Positions 47,075 through 52,968 of a stretch of 64,000 nt of DNA are shown one piece after another. Numbering within the stretch: the first letter of the stretch is position 1; every line of letters begins with the position of its first letter. Origin of the DNA: Linnemannia elongata (Eukaryota; Mortierellomycota; Mortierellomycetes; Mortierellales; Mortierellaceae); NCBI GenBank assembly GCA_036320915.1, contig JAXBDG010000002.1:2790001-2854000 (forward strand), written 5' to 3'. The position numbers and the translations under genes were made by a program. The notes beneath the pieces were generated by a model that ran no database searches, had not been told where the DNA came from, and worked only from the letters and a program-made list of their open reading frames with translations.

Positions 47075-50000
47075 CTACTCTGCCCTCATGGACAGTTCAT
47101 ACGTTGCACGGAGCCACGCCATGACATTAGAAAAAGTGGATGATCCAGATATGGAACTGGTGCTATTGGAGAAGGTACTTGTCGAGGGGGTCTCTTGAGA
47201 AGATGGACGAGGTGGGCGAGTGCGGAGGCGGAAGGGAGGCAATGGGTTGTGGTCGTCGGCGAGTATGGTCGTGAATCCTGACAGGGCAATGTTTGCTGCG
47301 GCGTTTCTGTCACGATTCTGGGTTGCGGTTCCACTGTGGAGGAGGGGACAGGAAGGGTTTTGACAAACTACGGCTCCATTGATCCTCACTTCACGAATTG
47401 ATCCGTTAATTAAACGCCGGGCGGTTGCGATTTTGACAGACTGAAAGCATATACAACATAGCTTTGATGTCAGGTTCTCGTTGGTAACGGCAACAACACA
47501 ATGTTGTCTATGTTTCTTACGGAACTTGCCCCCTCCCCTGCGGGCATGACCTTGTATGGGTGAACCCACCCCAGATCCTGCGGCGCCATAGAGGATGATA
47601 GGTAAGGATTTGGGGTTTCTGAGGAGGCATCGTCTGGTTGGATGGTGACTGTCGAACGGGTGGGAGGACGTGTGGTATTGGCTACAATCCGGTAGAGAGC
47701 AGAAGCCGTCGATGATTAGTTGACTGGTGTTGGAACTGGCGACGGGCTCTCCAGGGGTCGAAGCGGCATCGTCTAGTATACAGTAAAGCGAACAAGTTAG
47801 AATTAATATTCCACTCTTGCTGTTCATTATCATACATCAAAAGTAGACGTTTTTCTTACCAGCATTCTGGAAGAAATGCCTTTGACGTGACGCTAGACCG
47901 GCGTAAGTCCTTTTGGTCAGTAGCTCGCGGGTTCTACGGTCCTTCAAGATTGTCTCGTTCCTCTCAAAGTTGCGTAGGGCTGGTCCTGTCGACATCCTTT
48001 TGTTTTGAGCCTCGTCAAGTTCGGTAAATGAGAGAAGGTGCGTGATGGAGTTTTTTGAGAGTTCTTGATGCGCAGCTTTCCACTCTGGAGTAAGTCGCTT
48101 GTTTCGTCTCTTTGCAGCCTTGTTCATGTACGAAAGATGATTGACTTGATTGGCCGTTGTGGTAATGGCAGGCGGAACACTGATGGCGAGTGGCGGTTGA
48201 GGAACTTGAATGGTAGACGAATGATGGTGAATGATGGCGTCGGTATCCTCAGGTTTGTCCTCGGTGGTGTTGTTGTTGTGGTATTGGCGATCGCTGCATT
48301 CTGCTTCGGTAGAGTCTTGACCATCATGATCTAGCATATCGGTGTCTTCGCCGTCCTTGACCGCATTTTCGTCTATGTTAGAATGGAATGGTGTGAAATA
48401 TTAGTAACCATGGTTGGATAAACTTGATAGCCCTTATTGTTCGATCGCAAGCTATACTTCCAAACTGTTCTTACCTTGCAGCAATTGGTAAATATTCAAC
48501 CGGGCCGCAACATCGTGAAGAGACATTCGTGACGCCTGTAGCATCTTCGCGATGCCCGGATCAAAGCTGCCTAGCGTCACCGTCCGTGGGTCTCGCGGCT
48601 TTAGATGGTCCAAGTTAATGTACTCGGCGTAATCCTCGTGTTCTGGCCTTTCCCATGATGGATCCCGTCGAGCGTTAGGAGGCTGGGCAGGTGCGTCCTG
48701 CCGTGCTTCCGGATCTGGTTTCGTTTCCTTTGTGAAATGTTGTAGACGCATCCAATAATACCGGTATGATCGCAGAGTCTTGACCTCCTTCTCTGCCTCC
48801 AGGGTCGGCTGTAACTTGGAATGATATGCATCCGACTTGTGACGGAAGTCTTCTCGCGCTGTGGACATCTGGTCTAGGAGCGTATCGGACTTGTCTCCTA
48901 ATCGTCGAGCGCGAGAAATCTGTCTTTTTTTCCGTGCCGATTCGACCTTGTCTTGGCGTAGAGGCTCCAGCTCGGACCGTAGGAGCTTCAACGTTACCAT
49001 CGCCTCCTCCAACTCTGATTCAACCTTGGCGTATTCTTTCTCTACAAGCTCTGTATCCGCGTTCATGGTTCGGACTTCTTGGATCCAGTCAATAGCTGCA
49101 GGGGACCTCCTTTTCTTCTTGGCCTTGCGGCCAACATCAAAGAGGCTGACGACAGGATGGTCCAGCCGTCCTTGTTGACCATGACCTATAGTGGTTCCAA
49201 TGATCCGCACTCTCAGCTTATCGATGTAAATCAGTCTGATATCCAGAAAATGAAAGGAAAAGATTAAGAACCTGTACTATGCAGCAAGTTCATCACAAAA
49301 AAAGAGCACAGGAGTGTTTGGCCAAGGGTTACCTGAAGGCGAACTCCATCTGATACTGCTTGCATAATTCATCAATAGCGTGCCGGTTAAAAATGGAGAA
49401 GAAGATCCTAGCCTTTTGTTGGATAGTTGGTCGATTTCTGATAACTTTGAGGTTGTCGTCGTAGTAGTCAAACTGGTTTTCTTTGCTGCTGAATAGAATC
49501 TCCGAGAGAGAGGACCGTGTGAGTGCCAAGGCATGGCGAGAGGAAGGTGATACTTGCGGGGCCAACTGTCGCATTGATCCTGAATATCCAGCAACACGGA
49601 AGAACTCGTTTGCCAAGACGAGGAACGGTGCTCTCAACGCCACGTGGGCCTCTGCCTTGAACGTATAGCCTCCGATGTTTTCCTTGGTCTTGGAATCACT
49701 CGACGATTTCGGCAGCTGACGTTTTGGAACAAATGGCCTGAGAATGTTGACGAGAGTCACCACGGTGGTGCATTCGGGAGCTGTAGGCGTGATCCCTTTG
49801 CAAACTCGTTCCACATAATACGCATCTACTGGTCTCTCCAGCGAGGGAGATTGAAGGAGCATCTTCATGACTGCGTGAAGGCCCTTAATCCGATCTGCAG
49901 GAGTCTCAGCACCTATTATTTATATAAAGATATGTCAGATTCTACATCGCCAACGTAACGCCTTGAACGGCAGACATTCCATACATTACATGACTTCTCA

Positions 50001-52968: not shown

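Follow-up and report, generated by a model that had tools for sequence, protein, structure and literature searches.

The window analysed here is a stretch of 64,000 nucleotides from Linnemannia elongata (contig JAXBDG010000002.1, positions 2,790,001 to 2,854,000 of the forward strand), and it contains an 8.6-kb transposon, with ends at 46938 and 55544, that carries both a nuclease gene and a DDE_3 transposase. The nuclease gene is of the Fanzor type, occupies positions 47075-52908 on the minus strand, and is composed of nine exons. Sequence comparison supports its classification as a giant, divergent variant of Fanzor1, the type represented by SpuFz1 of Spizellomyces punctatus (PDB 8gkh) and PpFz1 of Parasitella parasitica (PDB 9cf0). 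The features of the gene are as follows.

52908-52891, 52801-52026, 51910-51232, 51117-50205, 50065-50006, 49912-49333, 49235-48475, 48372-47860 and 47772-47075, minus strand: the nine exons
50677-50679, minus strand: in-frame TAA at codon 638, present only in the window copy and sense in the copies on contigs C4 and C29
48551-48565, minus strand: RuvC-I motif FDPGI (Asp1234), the Asp being kept at every one of the 17 family loci of the genome
47477-47479, minus strand: alternative RuvC-II glutamate Glu1532, six residues ahead of C-x2-C and present in 17 of 17 family loci
47447-47482, minus strand: NENLTSKLCCIC, confirmed in the sequence
47348-47458, minus strand: zinc finger C-x2-C ... C-x4-C, its second pair of the type found in SpuFz1 and PpFz1
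47348-47365, minus strand: the C-x4-C zinc pair itself
47288-47317, minus strand: RuvC-III motif NRDRNAAANI (Asp1588)

Seven GT-AG introns, the same in all three genomic copies of the element, join eight of the exons, and the first intron with its 18-base mini-exon (52908-52891) was taken from the annotated start of the public protein model P0012 (also P0013). Residue numbers are counted from this annotated start, which lies ten residues ahead of the start derived from the exons found here. The original prediction, made from the letters of the window, had given a full reading of 1685 residues with a triad of Asp1254, Glu1552 and Asp1608; the reading from the annotated start comprises 1,665 residues and is interrupted by the TAA at codon 638, and the predicted catalytic triad is therefore renumbered D1234/E1532/D1588.

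The motifs on which that prediction was based, FDPGI, C-x2-C...C-x4-C, and NRDRNAAANI, were all found on the minus strand, and their conservation was followed through 17 family loci, namely the three copies of the element and 14 paralogues of the same genome. The residues of the D-E-D triad and the E-x6-C-x2-C arrangement are retained at all 17 loci, and the distance from the Glu to the second Asp is 56 residues in each of the 13 models compared. FDPGI is present in all three copies, and DPG in 15 of the 17 loci (DLG in L044, DRG in L045). Glu1532 sits in the sequence NENLTSKLC, of which TSKLC forms the [TS][TS]-x2-C start of the zinc finger. Fanzor1 has been defined by the pattern D-X(125,275)-[TS][TS]xx-C4-X(5,50)-RD (accessible text of PMC3627910), and DPG, together with a Glu placed six residues ahead of the zinc finger, was described as a Fanzor feature in 2023 (accessible text of PMC10711439). 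The window gene has the [TS][TS]-x2-C4 zinc finger followed by RD, as this pattern describes.

A second line of evidence comes from profile searches, which the original prediction had proposed as a check. A profile built from the last ~128 conserved residues of six family members was compared with 177,635 PDB sequences, and SpuFz1 was the top match (E 0.0013), followed by PpFz1 (E 0.28, not significant alone); up to E 10 there were three matches, the third being an unrelated mitochondrial carrier (E 0.49), and no TnpB, Fanzor2, or Cas12 chain was among them. The alignment with SpuFz1 takes in the two pairs of the zinc finger together with the Glu and the RD. In bit scores the profile gave 26.3 for SpuFz1 and 19.1 for PpFz1, on segments cut from the profile's own PDB alignment, which favours them, while the best of 1,600 shuffles reached 8.6. 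A longer profile starting at RuvC-I again placed SpuFz1 first (E 0.0081), with PpFz1 absent from its four matches; its alignment to SpuFz1 stops short of RuvC-I, and RuvC-I was therefore assigned by the DPG and by conservation. Full-length alignments searched against the PDB returned one chance match (alignment A1, E 3.3) or nothing (A4). Against single sequences, the NCBIfam TnpB model gave E 1, and Pfam PF07282 (the TnpB zinc ribbon) matched the window protein at E 0.024 and five of six family members, best at E 0.014, in every case below its cut-off. The AlphaFold model of the nuclease half, aimed at the RuvC fold with WED and REC domains expected of a Fanzor1 and computed from 11 alignment rows, is of low confidence (mean predicted local distance difference test score, pLDDT, 43.2; predicted template modelling score 0.24), and Foldseek with this model returned mostly long helical proteins, none at E up to 0.001. 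Signature motifs and the profile match to SpuFz1 together back the identification as a Fanzor, and among the sequences compared the giant family appears nearest to the SpuFz1-type Fanzor1.

The likeness to SpuFz1, whose triad is D383/E541/D606 (accessible text of PMC11423790), consists of the Glu six residues before C-x2-C, a C-x4-C pair with N-x2-C, an SG, and the NRD. PpFz1 has the same C-terminal motif set, with weak similarity only. The window protein differs from SpuFz1 in having ~850 more residues before RuvC-I and a gap of 298 residues between the Asp and the Glu, compared with 158 in SpuFz1. We know of no giant N-terminal extension of comparable size in PpFz1.

The element around the gene is delimited by the following features.

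46938-46977, plus strand: outer left terminal inverted repeat, G-TA-GAGTCTGCGCCAATAAG..., 80% complementary to 55505-55544
46939-46940: TA at the left end, the presumed target duplication
55484-55544, minus strand: outer right terminal inverted repeat, ...GGCGCGGCCTC-TA-C
53003-53063, plus strand (left-end orientation): internal third repeat, 90% complementary to 55484-55532 over 49 nt
53121-54735, minus strand: remains of a DDE_3 (IS630/Tc1/mariner-type) transposase, PF13358 at 31.9 bits with a cut-off of 28.6

Three copies, in the window and on C29 and C4, have identical ends and unrelated flanks; the window copy is 98.4% identical to that on C29 (138 differences at 8,441 sites) and 97.7% identical to that on C4 (196 differences at 8,472 sites). 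The internal third repeat is present in all three and, together with the right end, delimits a 2.5-kb transposase unit. An element limited to 53003-55544 was considered and rejected. The transposon shared with a DDE transposase, as originally proposed, is thus borne out by a DDE_3 match above the cut-off and by the same ends in three copies. The copy on C29 has 85 additional bases beside the internal repeat (at window position 53001) that are found in neither of the other two. In the window, the element lies between two tandem genes (44453-46516 and 55895-57984), which are 79-86% alike in their repeated stretches and which we take to resemble flavin monooxygenases.

A scan of the genome with the repeat found 17 places, compared with three for a control pattern read backwards; nine of these places are ends within the three large copies, and two more form a 217-bp element (L049) whose ends are flanked by TA. 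TA thus stands on both sides of all three large copies and of the 217-bp element, and the adjoining bases read G-TA..TA-C in the former and G-TA..TA-T in the latter. The flanking bases of the four elements are compatible with TA duplication. Of the TA insertion originally proposed, the TA flanks are found in all three copies; in these large copies the next base is constant as well, and a search of the organism's own genome for empty sites of the C4 and C29 copies returned only the flanks themselves.

The other giant paralogues of the genome (G000) are carried differently. No paired inverted repeats were found around them in a scan allowing up to three mismatches, which gave scattered single matches, and four paralogue subfamilies have a common sharp 3' border with differing flanks. 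One element without terminal inverted repeats (L055/L046), whose ends were read in two copies, measures 7,157 bp, starts with ACCACAGG, and ends with TTCTGG after a hairpin near the 3' end; neither an inverted repeat nor an evident target duplication is seen, and the giant gene is its sole long one (open reading frames of the first 1.5 kb were examined). The loci L035-L048 are mobile elements of this kind, lacking terminal inverted repeats and having a giant Fanzor paralogue as their long gene. Front stretches of 0.8-1.4 kb (L035 1-1404, L042 17-1415, and L046 1-823) read as far as the loci extend, are 93-96% alike in most pairs between three subfamilies, one front stretch of L040 being only 81-82% alike, and the coding bodies behind these similar front ends have diverged strongly, which gives the impression of exchanged 5' modules. 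A Helitron origin of these relatives was considered, since a hairpin followed by CTGG forms the end of several of them, and was set aside because this is not true of all subfamilies.

The N-terminal extension of about 600 residues, noted in the original prediction, proved to be a real part of the family, as it is common to the paralogues of the genome and to full-length public homologues of 1,605-1,797 residues. The homologue searches scored ~8,000 word-sharing candidates and were limited by length, so that relatives outside Linnemannia and Mortierella may exist as well. Between the copies, the ratio of nonsynonymous to synonymous substitution rates (dN/dS) of the extension is 0.22-0.38. Two regions can be placed within it.

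52208-52570, minus strand: OTU-like region, residues 84-204, from weak fold matches; tentative
51676-51837, minus strand: possible helix-turn-helix, residues 290-343; very tentative

The match of residues 84-204 to OTU deubiquitinases (OTUD2, OTUD3, and Otu2) is a weak fold match from a low-confidence model (pLDDT 38 for the N-terminal part), and Pfam OTU has no match in the N-terminal part of the window protein. Unlike the OTU deubiquitinases, the window protein lacks the catalytic Cys and His: it has a Thr where some paralogues have a Cys, and there is no His in the last strand. The modelled structure suggests that the extension may contain an OTU-like fold without the catalytic residues. 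An OTU domain is reportedly connected with Ginger transposons (PMC2836005); nothing linking Fanzor with an OTU domain was found in the literature search, from which subscription papers were largely absent.

The reading that we consider probable from the sequence relationships is that of a giant Fanzor1-type gene carried by an 8.6-kb transposon that ends in inverted repeats, the product of the gene being a predicted RNA-guided DNA cutter like SpuFz1. Through cut-and-paste movement at TA, the DDE transposase would mobilise the element from the outermost of its three repeats, acting as a pair, and a gene adjacent to a complete 2.5-kb transposon would thereby travel with it. The nuclease would bind RNA from the 3' side of the element and cut the vacated site, and repair from the sister copy would then restore the element. 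TnpB has been proposed to restore its own element in this way, through cutting of the vacated site and repair from the sister copy. By this family relation we infer that RNA-guided cutting would favour persistence of the element. The N-terminal part would serve as a docking module, possibly through an inactive OTU fold, for ubiquitin or a ubiquitinated chromatin partner.

Several results bear on this reading. The spacing from the Asp to [TS][TS] is 300 residues in the window protein, outside the published 125-275, and among 12 paralogue models, which rest on our own splice models and of which L037 and L043 contain stops, five fall inside that range and seven outside. The spacing is one ground for filing the family as a divergent variant; the range reflects the sample of 2013 and is not regarded as defining. 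The remaining points concern the guide RNA. The last 200 nt of the window element fold no better than shuffled sequence (z +0.71, with 152 of 200 shuffles at least as good), the 3' untranslated region has no excess conservation (3 differences in 137 positions compared with C29 and 4 in 136 compared with C4), and an Rfam search over 44000-58000 with E up to 1 gave no match. An RNA model built from paralogue 3' ends misses the window gene, both sister copies, and L045. The loci it recovers, L035, L036, L041, and L046, all belong to its building set, and its best match in the window (29769-29824, E 0.27) is taken as chance.

This missing signal at the 3' end of the element would agree with a nuclease of TnpB or Fanzor descent whose RuvC domain is no longer guide-dependent and whose large N-terminal part supplies the targeting of DNA or protein, and the size and conservation of the extension, with its possible helix-turn-helix, point the same way. 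Such a nuclease is nevertheless unlikely, as the triad and the zinc finger are kept at all 17 loci, and the 3' ends of the paralogues contain a structure that would fit a guide scaffold. Paralogues in four subfamilies end within about 25 bases past the stop codon, and around the stop codon, 14-18 bases before the element end, they have a hairpin. In a stretch chosen after inspection of the alignment, the hairpin, aligned with the window 3' end, has 24 of 24 cells paired in four sequences, and three of its six pairs are changed on both sides, a result reached by 9 of 500 shuffles; sliding the hairpin partner lowers the pairing to 29-58%. This paralogue hairpin may be a guide scaffold and is regarded as a lead.

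Whether the gene could instead be a decayed relic without present function depends on the state of the three copies. For the transposase, the C29 copy has an open reading of 526 residues; the gene is frameshifted in the window copy and broken in the C4 copy. For the nuclease it is the C4 copy that is uninterrupted, with 1,668 residues (1,658 from the start derived here); a single stop breaks the window copy, and the N-terminal part of the C29 copy contains a stop as well as a deletion of 53 codons in frame. Open versions of the two genes thus never occur together in one of the three copies, and the element would depend on help in trans to move. This damage would suit a relic; an improbable one, however, given copies 97-98% alike, one open nuclease and one open transposase among them, and a dN/dS of 0.27-0.37 between the three copies over the whole nuclease reading. 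The introns (window 47773-52025) diverge less than the synonymous sites, with 7 differences in 742 positions versus 33 in 1098 between the window and C29 copies, and 12 in 744 versus 59 in 1135 between the window and C4 copies.

The stop in the window copy also raises another reading, in which this codon separates two neighbouring genes, the upstream one encoding some 637 residues of an unrelated protein and the other a shorter Fanzor. The public annotation of the same contig does end its first protein there (P0012, F5H01DRAFT_103067, Linnemannia elongata, 637 residues), and P0001, a model from another strain, covers just the later part, as a piece of 638 residues. Two genes are nonetheless very unlikely: codon 638 is sense on C29 as well as on C4, where the copy reads through, the paralogue models and the public homologues have both parts in one reading, and the stretch of residues 541-860 (numbered ten lower than the annotation), which spans the stop, has a dN/dS of 0.36-0.49. 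The extension as a separate gene was rejected.

Also very unlikely is a type-V-like RuvC protein whose closest kin would be bacterial TnpB or Fanzor2 instead of Fanzor1. The common zinc-ribbon family PF07282 speaks for it through its match below the cut-off; against it, the PDB matches up to E 10 are two Fanzor1 proteins and the unrelated carrier, and the second zinc pair has the C-x4-C form of SpuFz1 and PpFz1. The genome has at least 61 places with PF07282, at least 53 of them above the cut-off, and is thus very rich in ordinary Fanzor/TnpB-like genes; six of these ordinary genes were read, and they have E-x6-C-x2-C and RD with C-x2-C as the second zinc pair, in contrast to the C-x4-C of the giant family. 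Against the giant-family profile, they score 8.0-9.3 bits, compared with 8.6 for the best shuffle. The window gene as one of these common PF07282 genes was rejected.

Returning to the Fanzor1-type reading, the nearest known elements are the Fanzor1-carrying Mariner elements PGv-1, PUl-1, and PUl-4, for which a Mariner transposase or repeats and TA duplications were described in 2013 (Bao and Jurka, accessible text of PMC3627910). The window element differs from these in being a composite with an internal third repeat, in encoding a giant protein, and in having relatives without terminal inverted repeats in the same genome. The literature search, in which subscription papers were again largely outside, found no report on Fanzor with Mortierella, Linnemannia, or Mortierellomycota, or on TnpB with Mortierella. 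Fanzor1 in Mariner-type elements is thus already known, and within these searches the giant architecture and the two vehicles look new. A bolder proposal, which we hold to be doubtful as a whole, is that the giant Fanzors of the Mortierellaceae (1.5-1.8 thousand residues) would combine an RNA-guided nuclease with a pseudo-OTU module docking to host ubiquitin or chromatin, that as sole gene they would drive the spread of hairpin-ended single-gene elements lacking terminal inverted repeats, and that one lineage would have been captured by a Tc1/mariner transposon.

Elsewhere in the window, some 430 bp are repeated directly at 42588-43745 with 93% identity and a spacing of 726-727, strong local GC skew (-0.32 to -0.51) is seen at 26001-30000, and two tRNA-Glu (CTC) genes are predicted at 20648-20719 and 39992-40065.

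Fanzors are compact eukaryotic candidates for genome editing whose role in nature has yet to be settled. The family described here is more than twice the size of SpuFz1, and the three copies that were compared show purifying selection along the entire reading. As one genome carries the family both in a mariner-type composite and in elements without terminal inverted repeats, the ways in which such a nuclease is carried, and the contribution of additional domains, can be compared in a natural setting. If the inactive OTU fold is true, it would hint at a link between a transposon nuclease of this kind and host ubiquitin signalling, and to our knowledge there has been no earlier hint of such a connection.
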